Shown here: positions 41,817 through 49,115 of the stretch, piece by piece
Layout: each line of letters begins with the position of its first letter
How positions within the stretch are numbered: the first letter of the stretch is position 1
Origin: Aneurinibacillus uraniidurans
Lineage (GTDB): Bacteria > Bacillota > Bacilli > Aneurinibacillales > Aneurinibacillaceae
DNA: 64,000 bases
Assembly (NCBI RefSeq): GCF_028471905.1
Contig: NZ_CP116902.1
Location: 904,501 to 968,500, forward strand
Direction of reading: 5' to 3'
Program-made: the position numbers and the translations under genes
Notes under the pieces: generated by a model
What the model was told of the DNA's origin: nothing
Seen by the model: only the letters and a program-made list of their open reading frames with translations
Database searches by the model: none

Positions 41817-44092
<2,276 letters not shown>

Positions 44093-44175: not shown

Positions 44176-44679
44176 ATGAGTGAACGAAAAACATGGGATG
44201 AATATTTTATGGATCTGGCTTATATGGCATCTACACGTGCAACGTGCCCGCGTCGGCATGTAGGGGCTGTGCTGACAAAACAGCGCAAAGTACTAGGCAC
44301 TGCCTATAACGGGAGTCCGAGTGGTGTACCGTCCTGTCTGGAGGAAGGGTGCTTGCTACATAATTATTACGAGACAGATGAAGTAGGCGTTATTCAGGAG
44401 AAACAGAAGTGCATTCGAACGATTCACGCGGAGCAAAACTTGTTGTTGTTTACAGATCAGGCAGATCGACAGGGGGCGACGATTTACGTGACTGATCAAC
44501 CGTGCTGGACGTGTGCGAACATGATTGCAAACAGCGGCATTGCGGAAGTCGTTTTTCATCGTCCGTATGCAAAAGATCATGCGAAAGTAGCAGAGTTATT
44601 CCAAAGGAAAGAGATTTTATTCCGACAGCTGGATATATATAAGGCTCCTGCTGGCGTTAAGATGGAGTTTGTGGATTAG
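44176..44679 (+). CDS. comEB: dCMP deaminase ComEB
   Basis: 167 residues. Zinc site: His and catalytic Glu in TIHAEQNLLLF, two Cys in QPCWTCANMI; further Cys ligands in ATCPRRHVGA and PSCLEEGCLLH fit the extra zinc of dCMP deaminases. It converts dCMP to dUMP for thymidylate synthesis; in B. subtilis comEB is in the comE operon but is not needed for DNA uptake. Start ATG at 44176 after GAGGAGAGAG; upstream codons to 44110 cover the metY terminator. Confidence 0.93.
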   Translation: MSERKTWDEYFMDLAYMASTRATCPRRHVGAVLTKQRKVLGTAYNGSPSGVPSCLEEGCLLHNYYETDEVGVIQEKQKCIRTIHAEQNLLLFTDQADRQGATIYVTDQPCWTCANMIANSGIAEVVFHRPYAKDHAKVAELFQRKEILFRQLDIYKAPAGVKMEFVD

Positions 44680-44785
44680 CATAATTTTTTTATAAAATGC
44701 ATGAAAAACTGGTATGGACTGGTCGCGAGGGGGTAAAGATGTAGCAAGAAGGCAATGAAGCTGAACTACAAAAGAGGTGAATGAT

Positions 44786-45370
44786 ATGCAACCGCATGTG
44801 ACAACGATACGTGGTGTGTGCGATAATTTTCAAGCTCCGCAAGAACGCGTGGATGATGTCTATCGAATTGTAGAAGAAGCCAAAACGCGTCCGGAAATTA
44901 CAGTAGAAGAAAAGAAAACAATGCAAGGCACGCTTCTGCTCGGATTTTATACAGAACATGGTGTGTTTCGACTGGTTGTACAGTCAGGGCTTCCGATTAA
45001 AGGGAGGCTGTACATTAACGGGATCACCGAGGAAGAGCTCAAGGCCAACCCGCTCATTCGTTTATTCCATGGCTCGATCTATTTGATGGGAGCGAGCGGT
45101 ATGCTTCGGTTGTATGAAGAAGGACTGAGCAAGGACATTCATTTCCGAGAAGGTCGCATCTTTGAAAACAATGGTTTCGGGGAAGAAAAAGAGCTGGCTA
45201 ACGTTTTGGTTGAGCAGTATATCGAACAGCAAATTGTCGAAGGCCGCATTAACTGGCTGCTTGAGAGGTTGAATGACTGCATGGAGCAGCAGGAAGAACC
45301 GAATATGTACATAATTAAGCAGGAATTGTCTGTACTTACAGATCAGTGGAACAGCCTGCAAAGTTCGTAA
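44786..45370 (+). CDS. Hypothetical protein, 194 aa, in the comE region
   Basis: 194 residues, soluble, no signal peptide. A central hydrophobic part (MQGTLLLGFYTEHGVFRLV ... GRLYINGITEEELKANPLIR) is followed by an acidic helical C-terminus (LVEQYIEQQIVEGRINWLLE and onwards) that faintly recalls the IDEAL-domain pattern; that link is weak. I do not recognise the family. AAAGAGGTG precedes the ATG at 44786. A terminator separates it from the next gene. Confidence 0.65.
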   Translation: MQPHVTTIRGVCDNFQAPQERVDDVYRIVEEAKTRPEITVEEKKTMQGTLLLGFYTEHGVFRLVVQSGLPIKGRLYINGITEEELKANPLIRLFHGSIYLMGASGMLRLYEEGLSKDIHFREGRIFENNGFGEEKELANVLVEQYIEQQIVEGRINWLLERLNDCMEQQEEPNMYIIKQELSVLTDQWNSLQSS

Positions 45371-45398
45371 AAGGAAGAGAGCTGCCTCTTCCTTTTTT
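45369..45398 (+). terminator. Intrinsic terminator after the 194-aa gene
   Basis: AAAGGAAGAG-AGCTGC-CTCTTCCTTTTTT. Confidence 0.88.
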
Positions 45399-45405
45399 AC
45401 ATTTA

Positions 45406-45436
45406 TTTACAAAATGTTTGCGCGGTATGGTACAAT
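45406..45436 (+). promoter_or_regulatory. Possible promoter of the MazG-like gene and comEC
   Basis: TTTACA, a 19-bp spacer and TACAAT. The spacer is long, so this is tentative. Confidence 0.35.
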
Positions 45437-45464
45437 AAAGAGAAAAAAGGGAGTTGTCCATACG

Positions 45465-46109
45465 ATGATTGAGATTGTACTGCCCCGGCTGAACCAGCTT
45501 GTTCCATCGCTGGAATCGACATTTCAAAAGCTGGTAGAAGAACAGGGAGAGCTGAGTGAAGCGATTCTGCGCTGGATAGAGGAGCAGGGAACACCAGGTG
45601 CACGTGAGGCGCTGCATCATGTAGCAGGGGAGTTGCTTGATGTGGCACAGACATGCATTTCCATGACATTCGTGCTCGAAGACATTGCGCCGGATGTACG
45701 GCTTGATACGATGATAGATGAGCATCTTGCCAAACTGATACGCAAAGGCTATGTGCAGCAGATGCAGGAGGTAGACGATGTATATATAACGGTAACAGCG
45801 GATGGATATCGGTCGCTGCGGCTGCCGCGTCTAGTCATTCCGGGTGTTACGCTCGATAGTACGGTGTTGAATATCTCGGTCGCGATTGGGCGGTTCGCGC
45901 AGTGGATTGGCAAATTCCGTGGGGCTAGTGGAGAAGAGTGTGTTCGGACGGAGGAACAGGTGCTGCGTGGCTGCGGTCTAAACTTACTGCATATTGCCCA
46001 GTGCTGTTTTACGATGTTATACATATTGGAAGAAACGTTTGTGATGGATATTACGAGTCTATTGCACGCGCATGTAGAGAAGCTGAAGCTGCGCGGATAT
46101 GTGAAATAA
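45465..46109 (+). CDS. MazG-like protein with internal duplication
   Basis: 214 residues made of two similar halves. Half 1 (about 1-100) looks like a MazG-type NTP pyrophosphohydrolase: LVEEQGELSEAI (ExxE pattern) and AGELLDVAQTCISMTF (ExxD pattern), ending HLAKLIRKGYVQ. Half 2 (about 115-214) repeats the layout (GLNLLHIAQCCFTMLYILEE ... HVEKLKLRGYVK) but has lost the acidic metal ligands. A house-cleaning nucleotide hydrolase or a regulatory derivative is possible; activity is inference. AAAAAGGGAG precedes the ATG. comEC starts one base after its stop. Confidence 0.65.
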   Translation: MIEIVLPRLNQLVPSLESTFQKLVEEQGELSEAILRWIEEQGTPGAREALHHVAGELLDVAQTCISMTFVLEDIAPDVRLDTMIDEHLAKLIRKGYVQQMQEVDDVYITVTADGYRSLRLPRLVIPGVTLDSTVLNISVAIGRFAQWIGKFRGASGEECVRTEEQVLRGCGLNLLHIAQCCFTMLYILEETFVMDITSLLHAHVEKLKLRGYVK

Positions 46110-46110
46110 T

Positions 46111-48504
46111 ATGATCAGGCGGCGGATGTTGTTTGTATATAGTTTGTACGCATTAGGTGGACTCATTTGCGCCTCAGTATATGCAAACAATGTCAGGTCC
46201 GCTTTTTTGGTAGTCGCGATAAGCCTTCTGGCGTCGACTGTTTTATTTATGCGATGTACAGCGTGTAGACGCTACATCATCATCGGTTTATGTTTGTTTG
46301 TGGCTGCGTTCGGTTACTATCGGTTGATTGACAGCCGTAATGTAAGTATGCTTCCAGTTGGGTCCATTACATGTGAAGGGGAAATCGTGAGTAAGGTTAC
46401 GCACGACGGAGATCGCGTTCGGTTCGCATTGCGTGTATATAAGGTATATACACAGCCGAGTGTAGTAGAGGAAACGGTGCAGGTAACGGTACGTCTGAAG
46501 AATATAGACGAATGGAAGCGAGCCCGGGACGTGTTCCAGTACGGCACGCGGCTTGCGGGTCCGATTGAGCTTTCAGTGCCGCCCGAACCAACGAATCCTG
46601 GTGCCTTTGATTATGCGCGTTTTTTGTATTTCCAGCATGTTCATCGAGTGGGGAGCATAGATGGGCTGCGCGCGATTTCGTATCATGCTCCTACGTTTAG
46701 TGTATGGGGGAGTTTAGTAGCATCTCAGGAATGGCTGGCGGAACGGTTGAAGGAGATGTATGGGCCGGATACAGAGGGGCTATTGTCCGGATTTTTACTC
46801 GGCTCTGTTACGGAGATTGATCCAGAGACCTATGCGAAATTCTCTGGTCTTGGTCTAACCCATGTCATTGCCATCTCGGGTCAGCACATTACGATGCTTG
46901 CTGCCGCTATCGTCTTTCTGTGTCGACTTACTGGCCTGTCGCGAGAGCGTAGCTTTCGACTCACTATGGCACTGCTGCCGCTGTATGTGTTTTTGACCGG
47001 AGCTAGTCCGTCTGCTATGCGTGCTCTCATTATGGGAGAGCTTGTTTTGCTTGCCCTTCTCGTACGGCGACGAGCGGATGGTTGGAATGTGCTGGGTGCC
47101 GCCTTTCTTGGGATGACAGCGGTTGATCCGTATGTGATTCATCAAGTTAGTTTTCAACTTTCTTTTCTCGTTACATTTGGGCTGTTATTGCTCGTTCCTC
47201 CGCTACAGGTGCGCTTGCAGTGGATGAAGCCAGCTTCCTTGCGTGGCCTTGTGGCAGTAACAGCAGCGGCTACTCTTACATCGTTTCCCTTAACGATGTA
47301 TTATTTTCATGTCTTCTCCTTTCTTTCTCCTCTCGTTAATTTTTTATTCGTTCCGTTTATAAGTGTATGTATTGCACCTCTTGCTGCTCTTTCGCTTATT
47401 TTTGGAGCTATTCATCCTGGTTTTGGTTTTTTAGCCGCAAACACTGTAGACAGCATATTAACTCCTGTTTTACACTTTTTGTATACAATCGAGTCCCAAG
47501 GCCTAATGCGCATCGTGTGGAAATCTCCCTCTATCATATGGTTGACTCTTTATGGGCTATTGGTTGCTTTCGTTTCTTTACTTTTGTATGGTAAAATGAC
47601 CTTTAATTGGAAAAGTTGGTTGCTTTGTATCACACTTGCTCTCATTTGTGTGTCTCTTCCTTATGTAGATCGCCGTACTGAAGTGCGGATTACGTTTCTT
47701 GATGTCGGACAGGGAGATGCGATTGTGATACAGACACCAGACCGAGTTGTATTAATTGATACGGGCGGCATTCCGGCAGTGCCGTTTGATGGACAGACGT
47801 GGCGTATACGACGTAAGCCATTCTGGCCAGCGCGAGATGTCATTCTCCCTTACTTATACGCACAGGGAATTGGGAAAATTGATCAGTTGGTTATGACACA
47901 TGGTGATGGTGACCACATCGGTGGTGTTCCATATGTTCTTACACATGTGCCCGTTCAACAGGTAATTAGCAACGGGGATTTGCCGCGGTCTCCCCTAGAG
48001 CAGGAAGTGACTGCTCTTATGCAAGCGAAGCATATTTCTCATGTGGCTGTGTCAGGTGGCCAAGTATGGGAGGAGCGAGAGGGGGTACGGTGGCGTGTGC
48101 TGAATCCGACCGGGATGAACGGATCTGGAAATAATGATCGTTCTGTTGTGCTGCTGCTTGAAGTGTACGGTCGCCGTATTTTGTTTACGGGCGATCTCGA
48201 GCGAGAAGGGGAACTGCGTTTGCTTGCAAATGAAATAGAAAAAGTTGATATTTTGAAAGTTGGCCATCATGGAAGCAAAGGCTCAACTTCAGAAGAATGG
48301 TTGACCCAGACAAAACCGGATCTGGCGATTATTTCAGCCGGACGAAACAATCGATACGGGCATCCGCATCGTGATACAATGGAAAGACTGAACCAAACCG
48401 GCAGCCGTATTGTGCGAACAGATGAATGCGGAGCTGTTACGGTCATCGTAAACAATAAGCAACTCGGCTATACAACCGTAAAAAACGGGACGACATGCCG
48501 ATAA
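46111..48504 (+). CDS. comEC: ComEC, DNA uptake channel
   Basis: 797 residues. N-terminal transmembrane helices and a DUF4131 OB-fold region (about 1-190), the Competence domain with multiple helices (about 200-500, including GLGLTHVIAISGQHITMLAA), then a metallo-beta-lactamase domain (about 520-790) with LDVGQGDAIVIQTPD, VLIDTGG and the metal motif THGDGDHIGG. It carries single-stranded DNA across the membrane, and the C-terminal domain may degrade the other strand. The start is tightly coupled to the MazG-like gene. Confidence 0.95.
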   Translation: MIRRRMLFVYSLYALGGLICASVYANNVRSAFLVVAISLLASTVLFMRCTACRRYIIIGLCLFVAAFGYYRLIDSRNVSMLPVGSITCEGEIVSKVTHDGDRVRFALRVYKVYTQPSVVEETVQVTVRLKNIDEWKRARDVFQYGTRLAGPIELSVPPEPTNPGAFDYARFLYFQHVHRVGSIDGLRAISYHAPTFSVWGSLVASQEWLAERLKEMYGPDTEGLLSGFLLGSVTEIDPETYAKFSGLGLTHVIAISGQHITMLAAAIVFLCRLTGLSRERSFRLTMALLPLYVFLTGASPSAMRALIMGELVLLALLVRRRADGWNVLGAAFLGMTAVDPYVIHQVSFQLSFLVTFGLLLLVPPLQVRLQWMKPASLRGLVAVTAAATLTSFPLTMYYFHVFSFLSPLVNFLFVPFISVCIAPLAALSLIFGAIHPGFGFLAANTVDSILTPVLHFLYTIESQGLMRIVWKSPSIIWLTLYGLLVAFVSLLLYGKMTFNWKSWLLCITLALICVSLPYVDRRTEVRITFLDVGQGDAIVIQTPDRVVLIDTGGIPAVPFDGQTWRIRRKPFWPARDVILPYLYAQGIGKIDQLVMTHGDGDHIGGVPYVLTHVPVQQVISNGDLPRSPLEQEVTALMQAKHISHVAVSGGQVWEEREGVRWRVLNPTGMNGSGNNDRSVVLLLEVYGRRILFTGDLEREGELRLLANEIEKVDILKVGHHGSKGSTSEEWLTQTKPDLAIISAGRNNRYGHPHRDTMERLNQTGSRIVRTDECGAVTVIVNNKQLGYTTVKNGTTCR

Positions 48505-48518
48505 AATTTCTAGATGGA

Positions 48519-48547
48519 TGCAACTTTTTTTAAAGGGGTTCCGTCTG
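48519..48547 (+). promoter_or_regulatory. Predicted autoregulatory ECF promoter
   Basis: TGCAAC followed by a T-rich 17-nt spacer and CGTCTG. The AAC of the -35 and CGTC of the -10 are hallmarks of ECF sigma promoters, and the site lies 25 nt before the sigma factor gene. Confidence 0.65.
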
Positions 48548-48572
48548 TAGGGTAGAGAGGGGAGGCAAGAGC

Positions 48573-49115
48573 GTGGTTGATGAACAATTGATACGCTCCG
48601 CCCAGAACGGGGATCGGGATTCTCTCGTGCGGCTGCTAGAAGAGATTGAGCATTCCGTATACCGGACCGCATTTTATATAGTTGGCAATGAGCAGGATGC
48701 GATGGATGCATCGCAGGAAGCTCTTATTCGAATTTATACAAAGATTGATACGTACCAGGAGAAGGCGAAGTTTTCGACCTGGGTTCAGCGTATTGTCACA
48801 AACGTATGCATTGATAAATTCCGCAAGAAGAAAGAGACGATTTCGATTGATCAGCACGAGCTTATGCTGTATGACAAGCAGAATGTAGAACAAGAGGTCG
48901 AACGTGCCGGGATGGCAGTTGAGGTGCGGGAAGCGATCAAGCGTCTGCCTGATCATCAGCGTACGATTGTAACGTTGCGTTACATGCAGGATCTATCATA
49001 CGGCGAAATAGCAGAAGTGATGAATATGCCGCTTAATACAGTGAAATCGTACCTCTATCGCGCGCGACAGCAGCTTCAGGAATTACTACATGAATATCAG
49101 AAAGGTGGTGTATAG
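48573..49115 (+). CDS. ECF-family RNA polymerase sigma factor
   Basis: 180 residues with sigma region 2 (about 25-90; DAMDASQEALIRIYTKI ... FSTWVQRIVTNVCIDKFRKK) and region 4 (about 115-170; LPDHQRTIVTLRYMQDLSYG, then MNMPLNTVKSYLYRARQQL) but no region 3. The GTG start follows GGGGAGG. The next gene encodes a zinc-finger anti-sigma factor, so envelope-stress regulation like SigW or SigV is inferred. An ECF-type promoter lies directly upstream, suggesting autoregulation. It sits between comEC and holA. Confidence 0.92.
   Translation: MVDEQLIRSAQNGDRDSLVRLLEEIEHSVYRTAFYIVGNEQDAMDASQEALIRIYTKIDTYQEKAKFSTWVQRIVTNVCIDKFRKKKETISIDQHELMLYDKQNVEQEVERAGMAVEVREAIKRLPDHQRTIVTLRYMQDLSYGEIAEVMNMPLNTVKSYLYRARQQLQELLHEYQKGGV

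Follow-up and report, generated by a model that had tools for sequence, protein, structure and literature searches.

Among described enzymes, the dimeric all-alpha dUTPases of Campylobacter jejuni and Trypanosoma cruzi carry a duplicated MazG-like unit within one chain and are thought to be duplication products of MazG-like ancestors (PMC2954211). The Exiguobacterium protein YP_001813558.1 (PF09934, PDB 3nl9) is described in the same source as a linked dimer of an all-alpha nucleoside triphosphate pyrophosphohydrolase (NTP-PPase), with a metal site formed across two chains. The MazG of Mycobacterium tuberculosis is reported to be active as a dimer, its metal being held by three Glu and one Asp (PMC10014863), and DR2231 of Deinococcus is reported to be a MazG-like enzyme cleaving dUTP among other deoxynucleoside triphosphates (dNTPs) (PMC5122711). 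Human DCTPP1 has been proposed, with cell-growth evidence, to supply deoxycytidine monophosphate (dCMP) to dCMP deaminase and thymidylate synthase (PMC7162842). Here we analysed a 64,000-nucleotide stretch of the genome of Aneurinibacillus uraniidurans (contig NZ_CP116902.1; hereafter the window), which contains a gene for a tandem MazG-like protein at 45465..46109; this gene and all other features given below lie on the plus strand. At the level of sequence, its product can be shown to be a duplicated MazG-type protein whose two halves have decayed differently, and the commonest upstream neighbour of its family in the Bacillota genomes examined is a dCMP deaminase.

Like the dimeric dUTPases, the tandem protein contains a duplicated MazG-like unit within one chain. 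It differs from them in that BLASTP still detects the likeness of its halves and in having close single-domain relatives, so that it would be an independent and younger case; moreover, its own genome had no PF08761 (dimeric dUTPase) match at E ≤ 1e-3. In a structural comparison (VIA), the T. cruzi dUTPase 1ogk matched residues 1-214 of the predicted model with Z 6.7 and a root-mean-square deviation of 5.1 over 138 residues, at rank 6 and tied with unrelated helical bundles. The Exiguobacterium protein differs in being linked by helix swapping between chains and not by fusion of two copies. Canonical two-domain MazG/YabN shares the tandem of MazG domains, one strong and one weak. In the genome of the window, a 510-amino-acid frame with MazG domains at 103.1 and 31.4 bits (L033, C1:3764042-3764635), which is probably MazG/YabN, is a separate and longer protein, whereas the window family has its own GKxRGxxGE loop and no NCBIfam model came near its cut-off for either the tandem or the single-domain form. 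DCTPP1/RS21-C6, an all-alpha NTP-PPase, is among the top structural matches of the N-half and offers a parallel in its proposed partnership with dCMP deaminase in dTTP synthesis (PMC7162842); as a human enzyme it allows no operon comparison, and the window family differs in having no invariant Asn in helix 3.

The tandem protein and its internal duplication

The tandem gene encodes 214 amino acids, and its relatives conserve this full length, confirming the open reading frame at 45465-46109 as a real gene. An alternative start at 45414 would give a longer frame; the alignments of the relatives begin near the ATG at 45465. Among 61 genomes searched (its own and 60 relatives), a match was found in 15, of which 11 were full-length at 67-100% identity including its own (the 10 near relatives besides the window protein at 67-95%) and four covered one half only. 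The genome collection held 16 loci with full-length relatives, seven at 66-79% and nine at 41-49% identity. A phage origin was rejected, with 0 matches in 50,697 phage records.

The protein comprises an N-terminal MazG-like unit (residues 1-100, 45465..45764), a linker (45765..45809) and a C-terminal MazG-like unit (residues 116-214, 45810..46106). An earlier note on this DNA, made from its letters, had described two halves of one layout ending in similar motifs, LAKLIRKGYVQ and VEKLKLRGYVK. Both motifs are present, and the halves proved homologous: an alignment of the two, one of the two tests that the note had set as able to refute its proposal, found similarity between residues 1-100 and 116-214 in a two-sequence BLASTP comparison (E 6e-9), and a profile-profile comparison with hhalign gave 99.5% probability and E 1.7e-22. 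The C-half was also matched by a profile that combined 35 single-domain relatives with the window N-half (E 2.4e-34), and a single-domain family of ~101 amino acids matched both halves of the tandem. As judged from these alignments, both halves are shown to be copies of this ~101-amino-acid protein.

We compared motifs across 120 distinct single-domain sequences and 22 tandems, 12 Bacilli-type and 10 Negativicutes-type, leaving out L041 (for which the splitting rule failed), L039 (on the contig of L030) and repeat loci of one genome. Negativicutes were sampled via the order and the class of G106, with four genomes each; the Negativicutes-type set includes L030, L038 and L040, for which the only named record is titled Clostridia. 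In the single-domain proteins, the K and three E of KxxEExGE and the D of ELLD were found in 120/120, the E of ELLD in 119/120, and the G, K, R, G and E of the GKxRGxxGE loop in 119/120, the letter before the final GE being Ser or Asn in the copies inspected. The N-half of the window protein keeps the predicted metal-site acids of EExxE (E25, E26 and E29, 45537..45551), which are present in 22/22 tandem N-halves and 120/120 single-domain proteins, and those of ExxD (E56 and D59, 45630..45641), present in 22/22 tandem N-halves. The loop has been lost at the corresponding N-half residues 35-43 (45567..45593), where Leu replaces the first Gly in 22/22, although some N-halves still have individual loop letters, such as G42 in 11/12 of the Bacilli type. 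In the C-half, the EExxE acids are replaced by V139, A140 and R143 (45879..45893), as they are in 12/12 Bacilli-type C-halves, and those of ExxD by N173 and H176 (45981..45992). The same half keeps the loop as GKFRGASGE (residues 149-157, 45909..45935), with G149, K150, G153, G156 and E157 in 22/22 tandems and Arg152 in 9/12 Bacilli-type and 1/10 Negativicutes-type tandems. The C-half acids are intact in 10/10 Negativicutes-type tandems, replaced throughout the Bacilli-type and lost also in L041. The statement in the earlier note that only the first half keeps the acids was therefore borne out. Its description of a catalytic and a pseudo-catalytic half stands as far as the lost acids of the C-half are concerned, and is too simple because each half retains a different motif of the single-domain relatives; judged by these motifs, the halves look complementary, not active and dead.

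A tree of 79 domains, including 33 of the 120 single-domain sequences and with L041 restored (as it was for both trees), placed the 23 N-halves in one group (support 98/93) and the 23 C-halves in another (100/99). Each group split alike into the 10 Negativicutes-type members and a set of 13 formed by the Bacilli-type members and L041 (support for the latter 97/74 among N-halves and 99/92 among C-halves); because of this matching split, the trees fit a single duplication and fusion event. When a tree of the 23 tandems was built from the columns outside the catalytic and loop positions, a single change (95/94) sufficed to account for the missing C-half acids. The order of events was likely duplication, then loss of the N-half loop, then loss of the C-half acids in one clade.

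The tandem protein at L041:1498-2106, from another class, has lost the C-half acids and kept the loop as GKFRGMNGE. A second independent loss in L041 was considered and set aside, one change being sufficient in the tree; L041 and L024 sit on long branches and their placement, and with it the choice between a second loss and shared ancestry, is unsure. G147, G377 and G168 hold divergent relatives, in open frames of 203-204 amino acids where the matches are weak and split; each has a ComEB-like deaminase on its strand no more than ~1.1 kb away, and these proteins may be additional forms of the fusion.

Family assignment and predicted fold

The relationship to MazG, also claimed in the earlier note, was supported. 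In Pfam scans, all three single-domain relatives scanned (28.9-37.1 bits) and the tandem L023 (23.3 bits) exceeded the PF03819 cut-off of 22. The window N-half, scanned as residues 1-107, came just under it (21.4 bits, E 3e-4); the C-half alone had no Pfam match in the family scan and was recognized by profile matches. In sequence searches of the PDB, the alignment of 35 single-domain relatives and the window N-half gave 5ie9 as its best match, a weak one at E 0.0054 that was followed by an unrelated chorismate mutase chain, and the window protein alone matched 2q73 at E 0.1.

The AlphaFold2 (AF2) model of the whole chain, with a predicted local distance difference test score (pLDDT) of 88 and a predicted template modelling score of 0.88, comprises two three-helix units joined by a hairpin. 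This predicted beta hairpin in the linker extends into the next unit (strands 108-110 and 116-118), and linker residues 100-104 have pLDDT <50. The N-half (pLDDT 91) has helices as expected for an all-alpha NTP-PPase, and a Foldseek search with its model returned the Thermotoga maritima MazG-related structure 2yxh at ranks 1-2 (E 0.15, probability 1.00), human DCTPP1 (7mu5) at rank 4, Bacillus MazG (5ie9) at rank 5 and RS21-C6 (2oig) at rank 14. In VIA, 2yxh came ninth, aligning 87 residues across positions 2-100 of the model with Z 8.2.

dCMP deaminase and comEC as neighbours

To describe the gene neighbourhood of the family, 398 Bacillota genomes were used, of which 141 had a match; 128 matches were strong and 13 weak ones (E 3.4e-8 or worse) were excluded. 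Flanks of ~1.5 kb on each side were taken for 127 loci, 5 tandem and 122 single-domain, G182 being excluded because its match lies at a contig end. Deaminases were called by tblastn with four deaminase queries, with PF00383 confirmed in six proteins. A dCMP deaminase gene lay upstream on the same strand in 83/127 loci, representing 33 of 44 families. Measured to the start of the matched stretch, which is not always the start codon, the distance from the deaminase stop was -122 to 302 nucleotides in 81/83 (≤250 in 77) and ~780 in two. In six genomes of one family, a Thy1-family gene was directly upstream instead; the assignment is by PF02511 (169.8 bits) in L099 and by tblastn with the L099 protein in the other five. 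Downstream, mnaA (UDP-GlcNAc 2-epimerase) was found in 77/127 loci.

In the window, the deaminase gene upstream is comEB (44176..44679; PF00383, E 2.3e-21), whose product scored 110 bits against TIGR02571 (cut-off 219) and shows HAE and PCxxC motifs by eye; by these features it is a divergent dCMP deaminase. Downstream, comEC (46111..48504; PF03772 and Lactamase_B) has its ATG at 46111, with one base between it and the tandem gene stop, which ends at 46109, exactly as the earlier note had reported. The functional tie to comEC and DNA uptake that the note built on this spacing, and the co-occurrence with comEC that it named as a check, were not supported in a wider comparison. The near tandem genomes do have comEC next to the gene in 10/11, its match starting -1 to 84 nucleotides past the stop; a dCMP deaminase also precedes in 10/11, with a gene for a 197-amino-acid protein between the two in 9 of these. 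Of the 12 other tandem genomes whose flanks were examined, six have a dCMP deaminase ahead of the gene and none has comEC behind it, and in the Bacillota loci a tblastn search with the window ComEC over the ~1.5 kb flanks found it adjoining in 1/127, namely the window itself. It is dCMP deaminase, then, that these genomes have in common as a partner, while the presence of comEC is local; its adjacency would follow from comEB belonging to the comE locus in the clade of the window.

Two arrangements around single-domain genes can be given in detail. In L099, one of the six genomes with an upstream Thy1-family gene, that gene (L099:50-1573) encodes a 508-amino-acid protein with two matched stretches and directly precedes the MazG-like gene. 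At L048:629-1345, hisIE, with a phosphoribosyl-ATP pyrophosphohydrolase domain of the same superfamily, lies upstream of a single-domain gene, and L050 and L054 resemble this arrangement by eye.

Proposed function and competing explanations

We propose that the tandem protein would be a small NTP-PPase of the all-alpha (MazG) type in the form of a linked dimer within a single chain. Its working site would be built across the halves, with the acids from the N-half and the loop from the C-half, giving one active site per chain instead of the two of an ancestral homodimer. It would cleave a pyrimidine deoxynucleotide, most likely dCTP to dCMP and pyrophosphate, and ComEB would deaminate the dCMP to dUMP for thymidylate synthase. 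The genome of the window encodes the thymidylate synthase ThyA, a trimeric dUTPase and a single ComEB-type match at E ≤ 1e-12; it has no separate dCTP deaminase, the sole DCD match being the dUTPase locus. For this proposal as a whole we estimate a probability of roughly 0.45. Taken singly, pyrophosphohydrolase activity is likely; dCTP, suggested as the substrate by gene context, has about even odds, and so, on the motif pattern, does a composite active site. We consider dCTP the likelier substrate because a role as a dUTPase substitute is argued against (see below) and because its product, dCMP, is the substrate of the neighbouring enzyme.

A number of results weigh against this proposal. The whole window protein scored 20.4 bits for PF03819, under the cut-off, as did tandem L026 (21.1 bits), and tandem L024 was unmatched. 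Foldseek E-values for the N-half were non-significant (best 0.15), VIA ranked eight unrelated rows with ~62-68 aligned residues above 2yxh, and the whole tandem model gave no Foldseek row at E ≤ 0.001 (best 0.12), the leading rows being unrelated designed and focal-adhesion helical bundles, and no VIA row at Z ≥ 8; since the E-values are non-significant and helical bundles match easily, the fold evidence is taken as no more than supportive. Neither 120 single-domain proteins nor 22 tandems have an invariant Asn in helix 3, whereas a deoxyribose-discriminating Asn, at a position that may be structurally equivalent, is described for dNTP-preferring members (PMC2954211). Over 34 family-invariant positions, the two halves did not lose different positions more often than chance would give: one overlap against 2.47 expected in the Bacilli-type (P 0.19 at 95% invariance, P 0.37 at 90%) and one against 1.4 in the Negativicutes-type (P 0.56 and P 0.78, respectively). 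As this position-level test is not significant, the argument for complementarity rests on two motif blocks and not on statistics. The Negativicutes-type C-halves, moreover, retain their acids despite the loss of the N-half loop, which a simple one-site model does not explain. As to context, 38/127 loci had neither dCMP deaminase nor Thy1 upstream (3 of the 38 with <1.3 kb of upstream sequence), and a ComEB-like deaminase was found in 352/398 genomes (E ≤ 1e-12), against 128 for the family; being far commoner, the deaminase does not need the MazG-like family.

The protein could instead be a dUTP pyrophosphatase whose product, dUMP, would go into thymidylate synthesis. It would then have converged on the dimeric dUTPases, whose supposed origin from MazG-like ancestors would offer a precedent. 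In favour of this, six genomes of one family carry the single-domain gene immediately after a Thy1-family gene, but trimeric dUTPase (PF00692) is equally common with and without the family (97/128 family-positive versus 202/270 other genomes, P = 0.90), so that a role as its substitute was rejected, and the genome of the window has its own trimeric dUTPase and no PF08761 match; we consider this explanation unlikely, if worth serious attention. We are a little more sceptical of a house-cleaning role, in which the enzyme would remove pyrimidine dNTPs that are damaged or modified, or act broadly on dNTPs, and would stay near dCMP deaminase for shared balancing of the dCTP pool. Activity on 5-OH-dCTP has been reported for mycobacterial MazG (PMC3855555), and the 38 copies without upstream dCMP deaminase or Thy1 would suit such a role; the repeated linkage to dCMP deaminase or Thy1, however, suggests a pathway step and not general cleaning.

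Given that neither half has the full motif set of the single-domain proteins in the clade of the window, the C-half being without the acids and the N-half without the loop, the protein might also act as a regulator, an option that the earlier note too had raised: a nucleotide sensor with little or no catalysis, which would bind dCMP deaminase and tune its activity. We find such a sensor improbable, as a pure sensor would not obviously need the five N-half acids kept in 22/22 tandems. A hydrolytic or regulatory role in connection with ComEC and DNA uptake, the suggestion of the earlier note, could draw on the one-base spacing, on its near equivalents in 10/11 near tandem genomes and on a terminator-like hairpin that sets the tandem gene apart from the comEB side, yet the absence of comEC from the examined flanks of 12/12 other tandem genomes and 126/127 Bacillota loci makes it very improbable.

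If the proposed dCTP-cleaving linked dimer is correct, it would give a function to an unnamed gene beside dCMP deaminase in many Bacillota and suggest a source of dCMP for dUMP synthesis in these bacteria. Among the matches listed in our literature search, seen as titles and abstract openings and with subscription journals mostly outside its reach, a pairing of a MazG-type protein with dCMP deaminase in Bacillota was undescribed. More tentatively, a widespread Bacillota family may feed dCMP to the deaminase and may once have been duplicated and fused, with a divided active site, in an ancestor with descendants in two present-day bacterial groups, making it a living intermediate of the kind supposed for the origin of the dimeric dUTPases; the one-domain, two-acid-set tandem and one-acid-set tandem stages would then all be extant. 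Three surviving stages of the transition from homodimer to single chain, with an active site split between copies, would open the hypothesis that dimeric dUTPases arose by duplication to direct testing.

Other features of the locus

Between comEB and the tandem gene lies the gene for the 197-amino-acid protein without known family (44777..45370), present in 9/11 near tandem genomes; family scans found no family above cut-off for it and only a weak DUF4388 match (E 0.056). A terminator-like hairpin with an 11-pair stem and a T-rich tail (45369..45396; -14.4 kcal/mol, z -4.3) follows, in a region (44600-48700) with 9 terminator-like sites versus 3.7 in shuffles. Since the hairpin separates the 197-amino-acid gene from the tandem gene, the latter may be cotranscribed with comEC, though its likely pathway partner lies upstream. 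An extended -10 element, TGGTACAAT, was seen by eye at 45428-45436, where a promoter scan of the plus strand reported none. Further upstream, 42623-44092, between comEA and comEB, holds a putative MetY-like gene.
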